64,000 bases of DNA from an uncultured Chloroflexota bacterium. Its GTDB lineage: Bacteria > Chloroflexota > Dehalococcoidia > Lucifugimonadales > UBA1127. Below are positions 43,996 to 52,874 of this stretch, piece after piece. The translations under genes and the position numbers were made by a program. Below the pieces are notes generated by a model. It was given only the letters and a program-made list of their open reading frames with translations, did no database searches and was not told the DNA's origin. The DNA lies in assembly GCA_913045315.1 (NCBI GenBank), contig CAJWQJ010000003.1, positions 1-64,000 on the forward strand, read 5' to 3'. Position 1 is the first letter of the stretch. Every line of letters starts with the position of its first letter.

Positions 43996-44985
43996 TTAAG
44001 GTTGAACAAGCATCCTAAGTGTTCCCTCATTTTCCTTGCGTTGATTGAGAATTTTATGTCCAGAATTCTCAGCCCATACAATGACATCATAAATGTTAAG
44101 AATTCCTGGGATTACAACTTCAATTAAGCTGCTGTTATCCTGTTTTATTTGTTCAGATAGAGCTGCAATAATTCCAGCACAGTTTTTACCTGTCCCATCT
44201 ATAACTATCCATCCTGAGGTATTTGATGAAACAAGGTTATTTACTTCTAGTGGATTTTGTAAAACATCTATCTCACCGAATTTTCTTAATTCTACCTGAT
44301 GTTTAAATTCTGCAACTGATTCCCAATATACTCCATTATCTCGATCACCTCTTGAACAGACAGCACCTCTCACACCAACTATATCAGGATTAACTCGTGC
44401 TAATTCATCTAAATCTGACATCTTTAGATGTCCTGATAAAGCTGTGCTCATTCCATCGGATTTTCCTTCCATTACCATGTCTTTAAGTTCGGATTCTGGA
44501 ATGAAGTCAAATAAATTTCTACCATCCTTGGTTAAAGTGTCTATTAACCAACCATCACAATTACCATCACGTGCTAGTTTTGGCATTAAATGAGGATCTA
44601 ATCCCCCTTTGTATAAAACGTTATCAGCAAAAAGCGAACCTATTAACTTTGTTTCTGTTCCTTCCAATGCTTCTTTTGATGCTTGTAGTATTTCAACAGA
44701 TTTTTCATATTCTGCTTGCATAAATCCTACTTTTACAGAAGTTGCATTCATTTTTCCAGCAGCCCAAACTGCCATAGCTACAGTCCCTTCCTGATTTGGA
44801 ACTACGCCTAGAGTTAGAGATGCATGTATTTCAGAAGGAACTGCATCTCTAACGCTTTTAAAAATAGTAGGTTTTGCAGATCCAACTAAAGCTTCTTGTA
44901 AATTTTTTACATCTATTATATCTGCATGGCCTTGCATTGCTTGCTTAGCTTCATGAAGATTTTGGACACTTACCATTAACATCAT
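43996..44985 (-). CDS. MfnB-like (5-formylfuran-3-yl)methyl phosphate synthase fused to a TusA-like domain
   Basis: 329 residues in two parts. Residues 1-235 match MfnB (DUF556), a TIM-barrel enzyme that in methanogens condenses two glyceraldehyde-3-phosphates to the furan precursor of methanofuran: K27 in ADIIDVKNLQEALVG, K85 in SVKVGF, and the closing DIVGVRGAVCSRGDRDNG. Both lysines are at the numbers of the catalytic pair in the M. jannaschii enzyme as I recall them. Residues about 258-329 look like a TusA/SirA sulfur-carrier fold: IDGTGKNCAG with C269 at the TusA Cys, then VIVWAENSGHKIL where TusA has its RDIPxW...GHE strand-helix. The CPxP motif is degenerate. The gene follows a DapA-like aldolase by two bases. 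Function in this organism unknown. Confidence 0.8.
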   Translation of the reverse strand: MMLMVSVQNLHEAKQAMQGHADIIDVKNLQEALVGSAKPTIFKSVRDAVPSEIHASLTLGVVPNQEGTVAMAVWAAGKMNATSVKVGFMQAEYEKSVEILQASKEALEGTETKLIGSLFADNVLYKGGLDPHLMPKLARDGNCDGWLIDTLTKDGRNLFDFIPESELKDMVMEGKSDGMSTALSGHLKMSDLDELARVNPDIVGVRGAVCSRGDRDNGVYWESVAEFKHQVELRKFGEIDVLQNPLEVNNLVSSNTSGWIVIDGTGKNCAGIIAALSEQIKQDNSSLIEVVIPGILNIYDVIVWAENSGHKILNQRKENEGTLRMLVQP

Positions 44986-44987
44986 AA

Positions 44988-45977
44988 TTATGCACCTGCT
45001 ATTTGTTTGATAGGATGGCCTATTGCCAACAAGTCGTTTTCTAATTCTAATTTTTCTGTATGATCAAAAGGCGTCAGTGGTGGTCGAGGATCTCCTGCAG
45101 CCATACCCATTAATTCTGACCAGTATTTACATAAAGTTACTGGAAGCACACCACCAAATTTCTGTACAGTTCTAGGCCACCATTTATCTGAAACTTCTTT
45201 AACGGCTTTTACGTGTGTATCATAGAACTTTTTATCTATTAATCCTTCTGATGCTTTGTTAATAAATTGTACATAATAATTGTTTTCCTTGGTATCAAAA
45301 CGCCAATCAGAGGTATTTGCGAACATAACTTGTTGGTGGAAACCCAGCTCCTCTTGTTTGAAATAAATCCACTCATCAGGAGTGCTTATTACTTTTTCTT
45401 TTCCTATAAGCATGTGAGTGTCGAGAGATATTTGTTGATTAAAACTTGCTTCTTTTACTCCAACTACATTAGAAGGTTTACATACTTCTTTGAGTCCTTC
45501 AGGACTCATAACAATTCCAAATTGTGGAGAATTATAAAACATAATTGCCAGATTAGTATTATTTGCTAGAAGTTCCGTATACTCTACTACTTGTTTCTCA
45601 GTCTTTGTAGCGAAATAAGGTGCAGCAAGTATTAGTAAATCAATACCAATCTCCTCAGCATATTTGGCTAAGTTTAGCATATCTTTATAAGAAGTATGTG
45701 TAACATGAGCTGCGGTAAGCCAGTTGCCACGAGCTTCATCACTTAGAATTTCCATCACATTAAAACGTTCTTCAAGCTCAAGGCTCCAGAATTCGCCCAT
45801 ACCCCATGTGCATCCTCCACCTTTTGTTCCCAATGAGCGAATGTGTTTAATATTTTGACGAAGGCCTTGTTCATCTAGTTCATTGTCTTTTCCAAAGGGA
45901 GTCATTAATGTGGTCCATTGACCTTTAAGATTTTTCCATGCCCATTCCTGTGCATCTTGTTTGTCGTAATTGGCCAT
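44988..45977 (-). CDS. dihydrodipicolinate synthase (DapA) family aldolase
   Basis: A 329-residue TIM-barrel class I aldolase or lyase. The Schiff-base Lys is K175 in VVGVKEASFN and the catalytic Tyr is Y148 in IMFYNSPQFG, so the active site is intact. It is longer than DapA, with an extra N-terminal stretch (EWAWKNLKGQWTTLMTPF) and a long C-terminal helix region, so it is probably not the lysine-pathway enzyme but another pyruvate- or 2-oxoacid-dependent aldolase. First gene of a two-gene operon with the MfnB-TusA fusion. GGGGGG lies four bases before the ATG. Confidence 0.85.
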   Translation of the reverse strand: MANYDKQDAQEWAWKNLKGQWTTLMTPFGKDNELDEQGLRQNIKHIRSLGTKGGGCTWGMGEFWSLELEERFNVMEILSDEARGNWLTAAHVTHTSYKDMLNLAKYAEEIGIDLLILAAPYFATKTEKQVVEYTELLANNTNLAIMFYNSPQFGIVMSPEGLKEVCKPSNVVGVKEASFNQQISLDTHMLIGKEKVISTPDEWIYFKQEELGFHQQVMFANTSDWRFDTKENNYYVQFINKASEGLIDKKFYDTHVKAVKEVSDKWWPRTVQKFGGVLPVTLCKYWSELMGMAAGDPRPPLTPFDHTEKLELENDLLAIGHPIKQIAGA

Positions 45978-46057: not shown

Positions 46058-49000
46058 TTAATTCATTAAATAATTTATTTGTGGTCTTATTGTGTATCCC
46101 TGATCATCAATTTTTGCGCGCATAATGGATACTGCAGTTCTGGCAGTATCCATTGATGTAAAGCAAGGAATCCTTTGTTCAACAGCTGCTCTTCGAATAT
46201 AAAACCCGTCACGCATAGGTTGTTCCCCACCAGATAATGTGTTTATTACGCAATCTACATTCGCATTGAGAATTAAGTCCAGAACATTTGGATTCCCTTG
46301 GTCTAGTTTCGATACTTCCTTTATATCATCATAGCCCAAGCTTCTTATGAAATTTGCTGTTCCCTCAGTAGCATAAATTATGTAATTCGAAGCAATTAAA
46401 TCGTTGATTAAATTTTCAGAATCTTTTTTATCTCTATCAGCTATACTTAGAAGTATTGATCCGTTTTGTTTAAGCATTAATCCAGAAGCTATAAGTGCTT
46501 TTGCAAGTGCATTTTCGTAAGTTTTGTCAATTCCCATCACCTCACCAGTAGATTTCATCTCTGGTCCAAGATGGGTATCAACTCCAGAAAGTTTGGCCAT
46601 AGAAAAAACTGGTGCTTTTATTGCTACAAGGGGTTTACTTGAAAGTAAACCTGAAGTATATCCCATTGAGCGTAATTTTTTGCCAATCATTATTCCACTT
46701 GCTAATTTTACCATTGGGGTATCAGTTACTTTTGATATAAATGGTATAGTTCTGCTAGCTCTTGGATTGACTTCAATTATATAAACTTTTGGGGTATTTT
46801 CATTCCTCATAATTATGTATTGAATGTTCATTAATCCTTTAATTTCCAGTCCTAATCCTATCTTTATTGTATAAGAGGTTATTTCATCTATTATTTGTTG
46901 GGAAATTGTTTGAGTGGGATACACTGCCATTGAGTCACCACTATGAACTCCAGTTCTTTCTATATGTTCCATAATTCCAGGAATTACTACTGTTTCCCCA
47001 TCACAAACTGCATCAACTTCACATTCGATACCTTCAAAATATTTATCAATTAGAATAGGTCTATCAGGACTTGCTATCAGTCCCTGCTCTATGTATTTTT
47101 CTAACTCAAATATGTTATAAACTATTTCCATAGCTCTACCACCCAGAACGTAGCTAGGTCTTACTAAAACGGGATACCCAATATTTTCCGCTACAGTTAT
47201 TGCTTCTTTTAGATTGGTAACAGTAGCACCTGGAGGTTGAGGTAACCCATTTCTTGATGCAAATTCCTCAAATTTTTTTCTATCAGATGCAATATCAATA
47301 ACTTGAGCAGTAGATCCTAAAATTGGAAGTTCAACATTATTGAGTTTTTGTGAGAGGTTTATTGAAGTTTGTCCACCAAACTGAACTACTGATTCAGGTA
47401 AAAAATTTGAGGTAGAGTTAGTTTCATTATCTATAATATCCCTTAAGCTTTCTTCGTCTAATGGTTCAAAATATAATCGATCACTAGAATCAAAGTCTGT
47501 AGAAACGGTTTCAGGATTCGAATTAACAATAATGCTTTGACGGCCTTGCTCTCGAAGAGAGGAAGCAGCGTGTACAGAGCAGTAGTCAAATTCTATTCCT
47601 TGTCCTATACGAATAGGGCCACTTCCTATTACTATTGCTTTTGGTTCAGGTAATGGGAGGGCCTCGTTTTCTTCTTCATAGGTGCTGTAATAATAGGAAG
47701 TTATTGACTCAAATTCACCCGCACATGTATCTACCATTTTATATACAGGAGTAATTCCCATAGATTTACGTAGATTCCGTACATGCTCAGCAAGACCTTC
47801 TGCAATTCCTAAATTTGCAAGCTGAACGTCTGAATAGCCCATTCTCTTTGCATATAGTAAGAATTTGGAGTCAATAGACGTTTCAGGGTTTTCCATAACA
47901 TATTTTTCGATATCAGTAATGTTTTTTATAGATTGAATAAACCAAAAGTCAATAAATGTCTTTTTACTGATTTCCTCCACACTTGCACCTCGTCTTAATG
48001 CAGCTGCTAATGCCCATATTCTTTGATCTGTGGGAGGAAATAATGGAAGTTCCTGCCATGAATCAATAGATTTCCAATCAGGGTCTTCCCATAATAGACT
48101 TGTTTCAGTTTGTTCTAGCGATCTAATAGCTTTTTGTAACGCGGATTCGAAACTTCGATCAATAGCCATTACTTCACCTGTGGCTTTCATTTGAGTGTTA
48201 ATTTGTCTATTCCCAGAAGGGAATTTATCAAAAGGCCATCTTGGAATTTTGACTACGCAATAATCTAATGCAGGTTCAAATGCAGCTACAGTTTGTCCTG
48301 TAACGGAATTTTGAATTTCATTTAATTTTTTGCCAATTGCAATTTTTGCTGCAACTCTAGCAATTGGATATCCTGTGGCTTTTGACGCAAGAGCAGAAGA
48401 ACGACTCACTCTAGGATTCACTTCGATAACATAATAGTCAATTTCTTTAGTAGGCCTTGAGTTTTTAGCAAGTTCAGCTGCAATTTCTTGGTGTGGAGCT
48501 AAAGCTAACTGAACATTACAACCACCTTCTATCCCTAATGCACGAATTATTTTTATGCTTGCTGTTCGCAAAGTTTGATATTCTTTATCTGATAAGGTTT
48601 GGGATGGAGCTACTACGATACTGTCACCAGTATGGACACCCATTGGATCAAGATTTTCCATGTTACAAATAGTTATACAAGTGTCATTCCCATCGCGCAT
48701 AACCTCATATTCAACTTCTTTCCAGCCAATTAGTGATTTTTCCAATAATACTTGATTGATAGGACTAGCATTAAGGCCAGATTGAATCACGCTTTCTAAT
48801 TCATTTTCATTATTTATTATTCCTCCACCTGTTCCCCCTAGTGTGTAGGCAGGTCTTGCAATTAAAGGATAGCCTATGGAATCTGCAACTTCGATTGCAT
48901 TTTTTACTGAATCCACAGTTACATTTGGAGGTTCAGGCTCATTAATTTCATGTAATAATTGCCGAAAAAGTTCCCTATCTTCGGCTTTTTGTATTGCCTC

Positions 49001-49354
49001 AATCTGTGTTCCGAGTAGTTGAACATTGTATTTTTCGAGGATACCTGATTCAGAAAGTTCAACAGCTAAATTTAAGCCTGTTTGTCCACCTAGAGTTGCT
49101 AATAAACCATCTGGACGTTCGATGTCGATTATTTTTTCCAAAAATGCTTTTGTTAATGGCTCTATATAAACAACATCGGCTGTTTCTTGATCTGTCATTA
49201 TAGTAGCAGGATTTGAATTAACTAAAATTGTTTTAATTCCCTCTTCCCTTAGGGATTTACATGCCTGAGTTCCTGCATAATCAAATTCGGCAGCTTGACC
49301 TATAACAATTGGACCTGAACCGATTACTAGAACTTTTGAAGGGAGTGTAGACAT
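46058..49354 (-). CDS. carB: carbamoyl-phosphate synthase large subunit
   Basis: A 1098-residue synthetase with two ATP-grasp halves. First: VLVIGSGPIVIGQAAEFDYAG; second: AIVIGSGPIRIGQGIEFDYC, beginning near residue 560. ARPAYTLGGTGGG and VRPSYVLGGRAME are the two nucleotide loops. The last 140 residues are the allosteric MGS-like domain (IYATEGTANFIRSLG), where UMP or ornithine acts in other bacteria. Makes carbamoyl phosphate for the pyrimidine pathway together with carA, one base upstream. Confidence 0.97.
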   Translation of the reverse strand: MSTLPSKVLVIGSGPIVIGQAAEFDYAGTQACKSLREEGIKTILVNSNPATIMTDQETADVVYIEPLTKAFLEKIIDIERPDGLLATLGGQTGLNLAVELSESGILEKYNVQLLGTQIEAIQKAEDRELFRQLLHEINEPEPPNVTVDSVKNAIEVADSIGYPLIARPAYTLGGTGGGIINNENELESVIQSGLNASPINQVLLEKSLIGWKEVEYEVMRDGNDTCITICNMENLDPMGVHTGDSIVVAPSQTLSDKEYQTLRTASIKIIRALGIEGGCNVQLALAPHQEIAAELAKNSRPTKEIDYYVIEVNPRVSRSSALASKATGYPIARVAAKIAIGKKLNEIQNSVTGQTVAAFEPALDYCVVKIPRWPFDKFPSGNRQINTQMKATGEVMAIDRSFESALQKAIRSLEQTETSLLWEDPDWKSIDSWQELPLFPPTDQRIWALAAALRRGASVEEISKKTFIDFWFIQSIKNITDIEKYVMENPETSIDSKFLLYAKRMGYSDVQLANLGIAEGLAEHVRNLRKSMGITPVYKMVDTCAGEFESITSYYYSTYEEENEALPLPEPKAIVIGSGPIRIGQGIEFDYCSVHAASSLREQGRQSIIVNSNPETVSTDFDSSDRLYFEPLDEESLRDIIDNETNSTSNFLPESVVQFGGQTSINLSQKLNNVELPILGSTAQVIDIASDRKKFEEFASRNGLPQPPGATVTNLKEAITVAENIGYPVLVRPSYVLGGRAMEIVYNIFELEKYIEQGLIASPDRPILIDKYFEGIECEVDAVCDGETVVIPGIMEHIERTGVHSGDSMAVYPTQTISQQIIDEITSYTIKIGLGLEIKGLMNIQYIIMRNENTPKVYIIEVNPRASRTIPFISKVTDTPMVKLASGIMIGKKLRSMGYTSGLLSSKPLVAIKAPVFSMAKLSGVDTHLGPEMKSTGEVMGIDKTYENALAKALIASGLMLKQNGSILLSIADRDKKDSENLINDLIASNYIIYATEGTANFIRSLGYDDIKEVSKLDQGNPNVLDLILNANVDCVINTLSGGEQPMRDGFYIRRAAVEQRIPCFTSMDTARTAVSIMRAKIDDQGYTIRPQINYLMN

Positions 49355-50470
49355 TTATACTGTTCCTTTTTTTATAAGATTAAGAAAATTTTCAAATATA
49401 TCTTTATTGTCAGTTGGACCAGGGGAAGCTTCACTATGAAATTGCAGAGTCATTATAGGAAGATCATTGTGAACTAAACCTTCAACTGTATCGTCGTTGA
49501 GATTTATATAGCTTGGAGTTAATTCATTTGGAAGGGAATTTTTGTCAACTGCATATCCGTGATTTTGTGAGGTTACGGAAACTTTTCCAGTTTTTGTATT
49601 TATTACCGGATGATTTGCTCCACGGTGTCCAAATTTTAATTTATAAGTGTTTGCCCCAAATGCCCTTGCAATGATTTGATGCCCTAAACATATTCCAAAG
49701 ATAGGTAATTTAGTAGATAACGTTTTAACCATTTCAATGGTGTTATTTAACAATTTTGGATCTCCTGGACCGGGCGATAATAAAAGCCCATCAGTTTTTA
49801 ATTCGAGAATATCTTGAGCAGTACTGGTATGTGGGAGTGTAATTATGTCGCAACCTAGGGATTTAAGAATTCTTTGAATGTTAAATTTTACTCCGTAATC
49901 GAGAATAGCAATTTTAGTAGGAGAATTGTTAGGGTAGTGCGAGTCTGAAATGGAGGAATAGGTTGTTTTTGTGCTAACTTTCTCAACTAGGTTAAGGTTT
50001 TCATAATGTGTAGCTATTTTTAGATTTTCAATAATTTTTTCAGTTTGATTTTCAAAAGCTATTGCACCCATCATAACACCAGAAGATCGCAATTTTTTTG
50101 CTAAGGAACGGGTATCAATCCCATGAATTCCTGGGACGCCTTCTTTTTTTAAGTAATTATCAAGTGTCATTGCACTAGAAGAATGGCTTGGGTAGTCACA
50201 TAAATTTCGGATTATTAATCCAGATGCTTGAATTTTTTCTGATTCAATATTGGTGTCACTTATTCCATAATTTCCTACGATAGGGTAGGTAATAGTAATA
50301 ATTTGCCCAGCAAAAGAAGGATCTGTAAGCATTTCTTGGTAACCTGTCATTCCTGTTGTAAAAACAACTTCTCCGTAACCATTTTCTAGGCTTCCAAACC
50401 CTTCTCCTTGGTATACGGTTCCATCTTGTAAAATTAAGTTTGCAATTGGGGCATCTGATAAAATTTTCAA
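49355..50470 (-). CDS. carA: carbamoyl-phosphate synthase small subunit
   Basis: Glutaminase subunit, about 371 residues. The N-terminal CarA domain (GEGFGSLENGYGEVVFTTGMTGYQE) is followed by a class I glutamine amidotransferase with the nucleophile Cys in FGICLGHQIIA and the His/Glu pair in LQFHSEASPG. The TTG at 50470 is preferred, since AAAGG lies eight bases before it; the GTG at 50479 overlaps that Shine-Dalgarno sequence. Passes ammonia to carB, which follows immediately. Confidence 0.93.
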   Translation of the reverse strand: MKILSDAPIANLILQDGTVYQGEGFGSLENGYGEVVFTTGMTGYQEMLTDPSFAGQIITITYPIVGNYGISDTNIESEKIQASGLIIRNLCDYPSHSSSAMTLDNYLKKEGVPGIHGIDTRSLAKKLRSSGVMMGAIAFENQTEKIIENLKIATHYENLNLVEKVSTKTTYSSISDSHYPNNSPTKIAILDYGVKFNIQRILKSLGCDIITLPHTSTAQDILELKTDGLLLSPGPGDPKLLNNTIEMVKTLSTKLPIFGICLGHQIIARAFGANTYKLKFGHRGANHPVINTKTGKVSVTSQNHGYAVDKNSLPNELTPSYINLNDDTVEGLVHNDLPIMTLQFHSEASPGPTDNKDIFENFLNLIKKGTV

Positions 50471-50491
50471 ATAGTACACCTTTAAAAGTAT

Positions 50492-51859
50492 TTATTTATC
50501 TTCGTAAACAATTTCGCCATTTCGAATCGTATAAGCTATCTTACCTTCTAACTCCATTCCATTTAATGGAGTATTCTTTCCTTTTGACAAAAAAGTATTT
50601 GAATCAACTAACCATTTTTTATTTATATTAATAATGGTTATATCTGCTACAGTATCTTCTTTTAAGGACTCTAATTCTTTCCATTTGGGTCCCAAAATTT
50701 TGACTGGTCCTGTTGTTAAACTAGATATGATTGTTTCCAAAGTAATTAATTGATTTTTAGATGCTGTCGTAAGTAAACCAATAGCAGTTTCTAACCCACT
50801 AATTCCTACAGAAGCATCTTCCCATGTAGTAGCTTTATCGAAATAGCTATGCGGTGCATGATCGGTTGCTATAGCGTCAATTGTTCCGTCATTAATCGCC
50901 TTTAGAACAGCTTTATTATCTTGCTTGCTTCTTAGAGGAGGACTTACTTTAGAATTGGTATCGTATGTATTTTTTGTTACTTGGGAAAAAATATTTGGTC
51001 CCGTAAGGTCTTTTTTTTCATTATCACCCCAACCCATTATCCAGTCTTCTGATAATAGAATGTGATGTGGGGTAGCTTCTGCGGTTATATTAATTTTCCG
51101 CTTTTTGGCATCCCTGATTAAACGGACCGAACCTTCAGTACTTATATGAGCTAAGTGAAGTTTACCCCCTGTTATTCGTGCCATTTCTATATCACGAGCC
51201 ACCATCATTTCTTCAGCTATAGAAGGTGAGGAAGGTAAACCCAGACGACTTGATACCCAGCCTTCATTTATTCCTTTGCCGGTAACTAATTCAGGATCTT
51301 CACAATGAGTAATTATGGGTAATTCAGTTATAGTACTGTATGAAAGAGCTTCTCTGAGCAGATCGGGTCTTTTTAAAGCGTCTCCATCATCACTAAATCC
51401 TATTACGCCAGCTTGAGCTAGGTCAGACATTTCTACAATAGAATTGCCTGCACGGTTTGTAGTTATGCTTGCAATGGGTAGTATTCTAATTTTGGTGCGG
51501 TCACCAATTCTTATAATATCCCTAACTACTGGTGCATTATCAGGACAAGGATTAGTATTCGGCATGGAACAAATTGTAGTGAATCCACCCTTTGCCGCTG
51601 CTTGAGCTCCTGTAAGTATAGTTTCTTTATGTTCGAATCCAGGTTCGCGTAAATGTGTGTGAATGTCGATAAAGCCTGGACATATTACCATCCCTTCACA
51701 ATCAATCATTAAACAATCATTTGGAAGAGGTTTGGGAACAGCATTTTTGGGTATTAAACTTTGTATTTTACCGTTTGATATTAGTAGACTACCTTCAAAA
51801 TCTATTTTTTGTGAAGGGTCAATTATTCGTCCATTATTTAAGAATATGGATTTATTCAT
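50492..51859 (-). CDS. pyrC: dihydroorotase
   Basis: Type I dihydroorotase, about 455 residues, that closes carbamoyl-aspartate to dihydroorotate. The zinc motif HxH is in DIHTHLREPGFEHKE, further ligands are in ITHCEDPEL and LHLAHIS, and the catalytic Asp is in ATDHAPHSYFDK. The ATG at 51859 is chosen for its spacing from AGGG; the next upstream ATG is at 51865. It overlaps the end of pyrB by eight bases. Confidence 0.95.
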   Translation of the reverse strand: MNKSIFLNNGRIIDPSQKIDFEGSLLISNGKIQSLIPKNAVPKPLPNDCLMIDCEGMVICPGFIDIHTHLREPGFEHKETILTGAQAAAKGGFTTICSMPNTNPCPDNAPVVRDIIRIGDRTKIRILPIASITTNRAGNSIVEMSDLAQAGVIGFSDDGDALKRPDLLREALSYSTITELPIITHCEDPELVTGKGINEGWVSSRLGLPSSPSIAEEMMVARDIEMARITGGKLHLAHISTEGSVRLIRDAKKRKINITAEATPHHILLSEDWIMGWGDNEKKDLTGPNIFSQVTKNTYDTNSKVSPPLRSKQDNKAVLKAINDGTIDAIATDHAPHSYFDKATTWEDASVGISGLETAIGLLTTASKNQLITLETIISSLTTGPVKILGPKWKELESLKEDTVADITIININKKWLVDSNTFLSKGKNTPLNGMELEGKIAYTIRNGEIVYEDK

Positions 51860-52874
51860 TAACATCCCTACCTTTATTAGTCATAAGAAGTAATATTGCC
51901 ATCCTTATTGCAATACTATTGGATACTTGTTCTTGAACTACTGAATTGGTTGAATAAGCCACTTCTGGGCTGATTTCAACTCCTATATTCATTGGGCCAG
52001 GGTGCATGAGAAGAACATTAGTTGAAGCCTTTGCAAGGCGGTCAGTTGTTACTTGCCAAAGATTTGCATACTCTCTAAGGCTAGGTAATAGACCCTTTGA
52101 ATGGCGTTCTGATTGTAGTCTTAAGGTCATTACTACGTCAGCATCGATTATGGCTTGATCGAGATCAGGCATAATCGATACTTTATTGAAAGGATTAGAA
52201 TCAACCCTATATTGTTTTCCAAATAGATCCCAGGGAATCAGGTTTGGAGGTCCAGAAATAATTGGCTTAGCTCCTAAAGTACACAAAGCTAATAAATTTG
52301 ATCTAGCAACTCTGCTATGTGCAACATCACCTACAATTAAAACTTTTTTGTCTTTTAAGGATTTCATGTGTTGAGCTAATGTAAACATATCTGCAAGAGC
52401 TTGAGTGGGATGAGCATGTGATCCATCTCCAGCATTAATTACCAGTGTTTTTTCTAAATGTTTTGCTGCCATATATGGAGCTCCAGAGTGATTGTGGCGA
52501 ATAACTAAAAGATCAATGTTGTTTGATTGGAGAGTTAACATAGTGTCGTAAAAAGATTCTCCTTTTCTGGTGCTACTATTATCAACAGATAAATTTATTA
52601 CGTCAGCTGAAAGCATTTTTCCAGCAGCTTCAAAAGAAATTCTTGTTCGAGTACTTGGTTCATAGAATAATGTGGCAATCGTTATTCCCTTAAGAAGAGA
52701 TGATTTTTTTGGCCCAACTGTGTAAATTTTTTTCATTCTATTAGCTATAGAAAAAGTTAATTCGAAATCTTGTTGAGAGAAAGTATCTACATCCAATAAA
52801 TGCGGTGTAATAACAGGACTATCTTCTCTATATACTTTATCAAAATGGTGCAAATTTTTTTGCATAAAATGCAT
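51852..52874 (-). CDS. pyrB: aspartate carbamoyltransferase catalytic subunit
   Basis: A 340-residue ATCase catalytic chain. The carbamoyl-phosphate site FYEPSTRTRISFE and the aspartate-side segments DGSHAHPTQALAD and LMHPGPMN are intact. The N-terminus is about 25 residues longer than the usual catalytic chain. No regulatory pyrI is seen, as in other PyrR-controlled operons. GGAGAG lies ten bases before the ATG at 52874; a second in-frame ATG is at 52865. Confidence 0.95.
   Translation of the reverse strand: MHFMQKNLHHFDKVYREDSPVITPHLLDVDTFSQQDFELTFSIANRMKKIYTVGPKKSSLLKGITIATLFYEPSTRTRISFEAAGKMLSADVINLSVDNSSTRKGESFYDTMLTLQSNNIDLLVIRHNHSGAPYMAAKHLEKTLVINAGDGSHAHPTQALADMFTLAQHMKSLKDKKVLIVGDVAHSRVARSNLLALCTLGAKPIISGPPNLIPWDLFGKQYRVDSNPFNKVSIMPDLDQAIIDADVVMTLRLQSERHSKGLLPSLREYANLWQVTTDRLAKASTNVLLMHPGPMNIGVEISPEVAYSTNSVVQEQVSNSIAIRMAILLLMTNKGRDVNE

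Follow-up and report, generated by a model that had tools for sequence, protein, structure and literature searches.

An aldolase and MfnB-TusA gene pair of SAR202 Chloroflexota as a candidate multi-active-site enzyme

Gene content of the locus

The whole stretch of DNA analysed here (hereafter the window) is 64,000 nucleotides long and corresponds to positions 1-64000 of its contig, in an assembly of 1.45 Mb with a completeness of 89%. Two genes on the same strand, separated by a gap of 2 nt, form the unit described below. The first encodes a class I aldolase of the DHDPS/DapA family, and the second encodes an MfnB-like TIM barrel that continues through a linker into a TusA-fold domain (Table 1). 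The initial annotation, made from the letters of the window, had described a 329-residue MfnB-like protein with a Schiff-base aldolase two bases upstream, and both open reading frames were recovered. In the window assembly, the MfnB-TusA gene is the sole match to the Pfam family PF04476.

Table 1 Features of the aldolase and MfnB-TusA unit in the window
Feature	Position	Strand	Remarks
MfnB-TusA protein, 329 aa	43996..44985	(-)	
MfnB-like TIM barrel (4-HFC-P synthase family PF04476), residues 1-235	44281..44985	(-)	D25, K27, K85, D149, K153 and R215 invariant; V61
Linker, residues 236-258	44212..44280	(-)	Low conservation (mean column identity 0.48)
TusA-fold domain, residues 259-329	43999..44211	(-)	Motif D263-G-x-G266-K-x-C269-A-G
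Cys269 codon	44179..44181	(-)	Invariant in 40/40 homologues; first residue of helix 1; position of the TusA active-site Cys
DHDPS/DapA-family class I aldolase, 329 aa	44988..45977	(-)	Y148 and K175 invariant; N-terminal in-frame fusion in 53 other SAR202 genomes

A glutamate dehydrogenase gene lies downstream of the unit on the opposite strand. On the upstream side, genes for PyrB, PyrC, CarA and CarB, recognised by reading their translations, occupy window positions 46058-52874 on the minus strand. As these pyrimidine genes end only 80 nt upstream of the aldolase and on the same strand, the unit may be co-transcribed with them here. No such arrangement of pyrimidine genes was present upstream of the unit in the relatives whose loci were read.

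The MfnB-like barrel and its genomic context

MfnB is the (5-formylfuran-3-yl)methyl phosphate (4-HFC-P) synthase, which forms 4-HFC-P from two molecules of glyceraldehyde-3-phosphate. The PF04476 profile matched the window protein over residues 3-227 (profile positions 1-227 of 228) with an E-value of 6.5e-53 and 180 bits, compared with a curated cut-off of 22.4, and the barrel aligned over its whole length with MJ1099, the MfnB of M. jannaschii (4RC1/4U9P; E-value 7.9e-43, 40% identity). Among 40 homologues, D25, K27, E31, K85, D149, K153, R206, C210, R215, D263, G266, C269, D300 and W304 were invariant. The catalytic Lys/Asp set of MJ1099 (D25, K27, K85, D151 and K155) therefore has its equivalents kept throughout, as has R217. 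Within that set, we take D25, K27, K85 and D151 to be catalytic. Lys155 has been described as a catalytic residue of MfnB (PMC11365854). The MfnB signatures that had been read in the first 235 residues were thus borne out by the full-length profile match and by the complete conservation of K27 and K85.

The furan synthase named in the initial annotation fared less well. The intact catalytic lysines and aspartates agree with it, but position 61 and the profile scores do not. This position is Val in all 40 SAR202 sequences, whereas each of the nine other archaeal and bacterial MfnB sequences compared has an acid there (Asp in MJ1099 and seven bacterial sequences, Glu in one Rhizobium sequence). 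From the strand pattern, we read position 61 as the C-terminal end of strand 3, which in TIM barrels is the side that bears the active-site residues. Other positions that are uniform in the nine archaeal and bacterial MfnB sequences have also changed in SAR202, namely P29 to L, G32 to A, and A186 (MJ1099 numbering) to S. Together with V61, these changes suggest that even the reaction of the MfnB barrel may differ here. Furthermore, the NCBIfam MfnB equivalog cut-off was missed widely (185.4 against 341 bits). The window protein hence departs from MfnB in its residues at V61, L29, A32, S184 and H186 and in its score, and also in its extra TusA domain, its near-obligate DHDPS-family partner and its lack of methanofuran partners. 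Furan synthase activity is thus putative.

Given its MfnB homology, the unit could be taken for a methylofuran or methanofuran biosynthesis gene (compare PMC8141765 for bacterial MfnB serving methylofuran). This is extremely improbable. MfnF (TIGR03123) and DUF447 (PF04289) were detected in none of 15 genomes carrying the unit, while methanogen controls were positive, and FwdA/FhcA (TIGR03121) gave no match above the cut-off. Genuine bacterial MfnB genes, in contrast, adjoin these methanofuran partners, as on Aquabacterium and Azospirillum plasmids. A role in this pathway was therefore rejected, and the earlier remark that the window holds no other methanofuran gene can be extended to the absence of MfnF and DUF447 from the 15 carriers. 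The TIGR03121 matches below the cut-off were short and of amidohydrolase type and were disregarded; the one in the window (51650-51847) lies inside the open reading frame that reads as dihydroorotase.

In the loci read, the two genes had no constant neighbours besides each other, and the surrounding genes were unrelated housekeeping genes. Recurring neighbours, named by sequence reading, occurred only in subsets of the loci (DAK2/DegV/RecG-like, prephenate dehydratase-like, Trk/Ktr-like, Fpg-like and IleRS-like), and no sulfur-related gene adjoined the unit. This variability indicates that the unit is self-contained and that its chromosomal place has changed.

Another MfnB homologue, 34% identical to the window protein, was seen on Streptomyces plasmids (L085:9001-13263, L086:8980-13437 and L095:2001-4711). 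It is followed by genes for an aldehyde dehydrogenase and an alcohol dehydrogenase and, in the stretches that reach far enough, by a SAM methyltransferase gene, with no methanofuran genes in any of the stretches read. On its predicted gene content, this operon is another bacterial use of MfnB outside C1 metabolism. It resembles the unit as a bacterial MfnB homologue placed outside methanofuran synthesis, but it has neither a TusA domain nor a DHDPS-family partner and keeps Asp at position 61.

The aldolase, its partnership and its fusion

The aldolase matched PF00701 with an E-value of 1.2e-28 and 100 bits (cut-off 22.1), and the Schiff-base residue K175 and Y148, noted from the start as an intact Lys and Tyr, were invariant in 26 homologues. 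It shares its fold family and these two residues with the class I aldolases of the DHDPS/DapA superfamily, including KdgD and N-acetylneuraminate lyase. It differs from them in that WGMGEFW replaces GTTGE, and it scores far below all curated subfamily cut-offs, including that of DapA proper (TIGR00674, 78.9 against 206 bits). At aligned positions, T44/T45 and R138 of DapA, residues with presumed roles in that enzyme, are replaced by G59/M60 and F153, respectively, so that pyruvate as the donor is not assured. The invariant tryptophans and the WGMGEFW loop might fit an aromatic or furan-like substrate, although this is a guess. On plasmids, the nearest DHDPS-family relative (Phaeobacter, 29% identical) lies in a context without a clear functional hint. 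Neither the aldolase nor the MfnB-like protein should be named after its nearest characterised relative.

Across the members of the aldolase family, the closest curated profile was 5-dehydro-4-deoxyglucarate dehydratase. Accordingly, one might picture a catabolic unit, in which the DHDPS-family aldolase/dehydratase would degrade a sugar acid and the MfnB barrel would act as a second aldolase on its product. Such a unit would fit the catabolism of sugar acids in SAR202 cultures, for which non-phosphorylating L-fucose/L-rhamnose pathways leading to pyruvate and lactate or lactaldehyde have been proposed (PMC10444878). We nevertheless regard it as improbable. The scores fall far short of all curated cut-offs, the unit has no constant neighbour encoding a transporter, a dehydrogenase or an enolase-superfamily protein, and the TusA-like domain would be left unexplained.

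The MfnB-TusA gene was found in 118 of 250 genomes of the window's order (SAR202), with the TusA part always present unless the contig ends. A phylum-wide sample of 400 genomes yielded two matches, both inside the order, namely the window genome itself and one other genome. By homology, the unit is thus shown to be restricted, within the genomes searched, to a single Chloroflexota order. No relatives of the unit were found in viral contigs. None of the 31 plasmid records matching the MfnB-TusA protein covers 80% of this query, and the matches listed stop at or before residue 238, which speaks against a TusA fusion in plasmid-borne MfnB.

Of 247 genomes of the order, 116 have an aldolase orthologue (E ≤ 1e-60). 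In the two carriers of MfnB-TusA where it was not detected, G082 and G182, the contig starts 204 nt and 1 nt, respectively, before the MfnB match. The genes were seen apart in a single carrier, G164, where they are apparently unlinked and lie on two contigs (C74 and C122; loci L096 and L097) with other sequence in the partner's place. Furthermore, the aldolase and MfnB matches fall in one open frame in 53 genomes, which implies a single aldolase-MfnB-TusA open reading frame of approximately 670-750 aa, as at L042:9896-11950 (-); 15 of these fused frames were read out directly and 14 were aligned end to end. The initial annotation had proposed looking for the same fusion and gene order in other Chloroflexota, and what emerged is near-perfect co-occurrence together with this in-frame fusion. 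Judging from gene order and fusion, the aldolase and MfnB-TusA almost certainly constitute one functional unit, as a complex or, in other lineages, as a single chain.

In a tree of the concatenated proteins from 41 loci, one branch (SH-aLRT 99) parted the fused from the split forms, while shuffled labels needed 11.9 changes. One fusion event therefore suffices for the 41 sampled loci in this quick tree, in which the deep branches are weak and the root is not placed. The window copy comes from family f1 but clusters in this tree with a genome from family f13, and the other sampled f1 genomes have the fused form, which suggests transfer within the order. One genome, G242, holds two aldolase/MfnB-TusA pairs (L098:131-2130 and L099:6256-8259), which fall on different branches and share 80 and 69% identity with the window protein; this double copy reflects either within-order transfer or bin contamination.

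The TusA-fold domain and the proposed chemistry

The window protein alone gave a sub-threshold match to the TusA family PF01206 (15-19 bits against a gathering cut-off of 28.6, residues 261-328). The C-terminal domains of all 40 homologues matched this profile at E ≤ 1, with a best E-value of 2.9e-7, and the cut-off was exceeded at the same locus in two genomes (30.3 bits in G200 and 29.4 bits in G179). Taken across the homologues, the predicted TusA match is not a chance one. An AlphaFold2 model of the 72-residue domain (mean pLDDT 93.8) has the order beta-alpha-beta-alpha-beta-beta. In Foldseek, it superposed on YeeD/TsuB (TM 0.82, 1.7 Å), E. coli TusA (TM 0.80/0.75, 2.0 Å) and a SirA-like protein (TM 0.80/0.78, 1.9 Å), and the highest TM-scores among the matches listed were those of TusA-family PDB entries. 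None of the E-values fell below 0.001, as is usual for a domain of this size. When the PDB was searched by profile with the TusA domain, chance matches alone came back, so the assignment is based on the fold and on the Pfam matches shared by the homologues. A full-length model from five sequences was poor (mean pLDDT 57), and nothing but the secondary structure of residues 260-329 was taken from it. The TusA likeness that the initial annotation had seen in the last 72 residues therefore holds, both in the fold and in Cys269, which is as fully conserved as K27 and K85.

The segment D263-G-x-G266-K-x-C269 has the same spacing as the D-x-x-G-x-x-C start of TusA, and Cys269 lies in the first turn of helix 1, as in TusA, YeeD/TsuB and SirA-like proteins. 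The domain differs from this family in being joined to a TIM barrel and in having lost the CPxP motif, which is replaced by CA[GS]x (Cys in 40/40, then A/S and G/S, with both prolines replaced). CPxP is conserved in the TusA family, and its Cys is the acceptor residue (PMC11073785). Its loss weakens the claim of a sulfur carrier without excluding it, because the Cys is the acceptor residue of TusA; the fold and the single invariant Cys of the proposed carrier stand, and its defining motif does not. Mean conservation was 0.79 in the barrel and 0.70 in the TusA domain, compared with 0.48 in the linker. In six close pairs, the barrel had a dN/dS of 0.02-0.07 and the TusA domain one of 0.01-0.08. 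Such low values indicate that the TusA domain is under purifying selection and is no decaying appendage. With this degree of conservation, Cys269 is very probably essential for function, while the chances that it carries a persulfide appear evenly balanced.

Two further explanations assign other tasks to this domain. The MfnB barrel might form a furan or a related C6 aldehyde from triose phosphates, to be extended by the second aldolase, with the TusA fold serving in docking, redox sensing or regulation and donating no sulfur. The kept MfnB catalytic residues, the lost CPxP and the non-methanofuran Streptomyces operon are all consistent with this explanation, yet a pure docking domain would need no absolutely invariant Cys at the TusA catalytic position, and we consider it unlikely, though a possibility to be reckoned with. 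Alternatively, Cys269 could be a covalent shuttle that, like a short swinging arm, takes up the reactive aldehyde as a thiohemiacetal at the MfnB site and hands it to the DHDPS-family barrel. An invariant Cys in a small domain on a variable linker, two aldolase sites within one chain and the missing CPxP might be read in this way. The order aldolase-MfnB-TusA, however, tethers the arm to MfnB only, and we know of no precedent for a TusA-fold domain carrying aldehydes, which makes such a shuttle improbable.

Comparison with the known families shows the unit to comprise two predicted class I aldolase sites, with the Schiff-base residues intact in both barrels, and a TusA-fold domain. In our tentative opinion, the best explanation of the whole is a SAR202-specific multi-active-site enzyme, in which two Schiff-base aldolases would act one after the other on an aldehyde derived from triose phosphate and Cys269 would deliver sulfur or dock a partner. 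On K27, the MfnB barrel would form an imine with a triose phosphate, either DHAP or glyceraldehyde-3-phosphate, and build from it a phosphorylated aldehyde or heterocycle; imine chemistry of the triose-phosphate type on K27 is likely. Through K175, the DHDPS-family barrel would, most simply, join this reactive aldehyde to a 2-oxo acid, for instance pyruvate, by aldol condensation or, alternatively, supply the aldehyde by retro-aldol cleavage, with the intermediate being channelled. A SufS-type cysteine desulfurase would load Cys269 as a persulfide, and Cys269 would then present the sulfur to the imine intermediate, in a manner comparable to ThiG with ThiS. In that system, too, a TIM barrel Lys forms an imine with a phosphorylated sugar and is served by a small sulfur carrier. 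ThiS, however, is a thiocarboxylate carrier of ubiquitin fold, in contrast to the TusA fold here, and the comparison is one of analogy, with no claim of homology. What results would be a small metabolite that contains sulfur and is distinct from methanofuran, although it is somewhat doubtful that the sulfur ends up in the product. Rather unlikely is the more specific idea of a heterocycle synthase of the furan or thiophene type, with the TusA fold feeding persulfide sulfur to the MfnB Schiff base and the fused aldolase elaborating the product. The uncharacterised bacterial pathway that the initial annotation had envisaged thus gains from the architecture, the operon partner, the co-occurrence and the fusion, but its sulfur carrier and its furan synthase are weaker than proposed.

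We found no description of an aldolase/MfnB/TusA fusion in the open-licence literature. The parts belong to known families and their assembly appears to be new, with a real chance of new chemistry; the unit probably builds a small molecule not yet described. It ties two sites for C-C bond formation to a sulfur-carrier fold, and many genomes encode the whole as a single chain. Roughly half of the genomes sampled from this widespread marine order have the unit, and strong purifying selection maintains it there. As it consists of one or two genes without constant pathway neighbours, its chemistry is directly testable with one fused protein of approximately 700 residues. If sulfur reaches the product, the unit would represent a small-molecule sulfur-transfer route without carriers of the ThiS/MoaD type; if not, it would still be a bacterial MfnB offshoot outside C1 metabolism. 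Should it prove to be a heterocycle synthase, it would constitute a new trifunctional class of biosynthetic enzymes, and an abundant clade of the dark ocean would then make a sulfur-containing metabolite or coenzyme not described before.

A SufS-type cysteine desulfurase was present in all 15 carrier genomes tested. With the PF01206 profile, the window genome yielded no further TusA. Two other carriers have a separate small TusA-like open reading frame, in the region around 2032295-2033135 of G005:C1 (L078) and around 1635032-1635933 of G228:C1 (L075 and L084). In both, a second TusA match follows approximately 0.5 kb downstream of the small frame, inside an open frame of 508-579 aa. A few carriers therefore own other TusA proteins.
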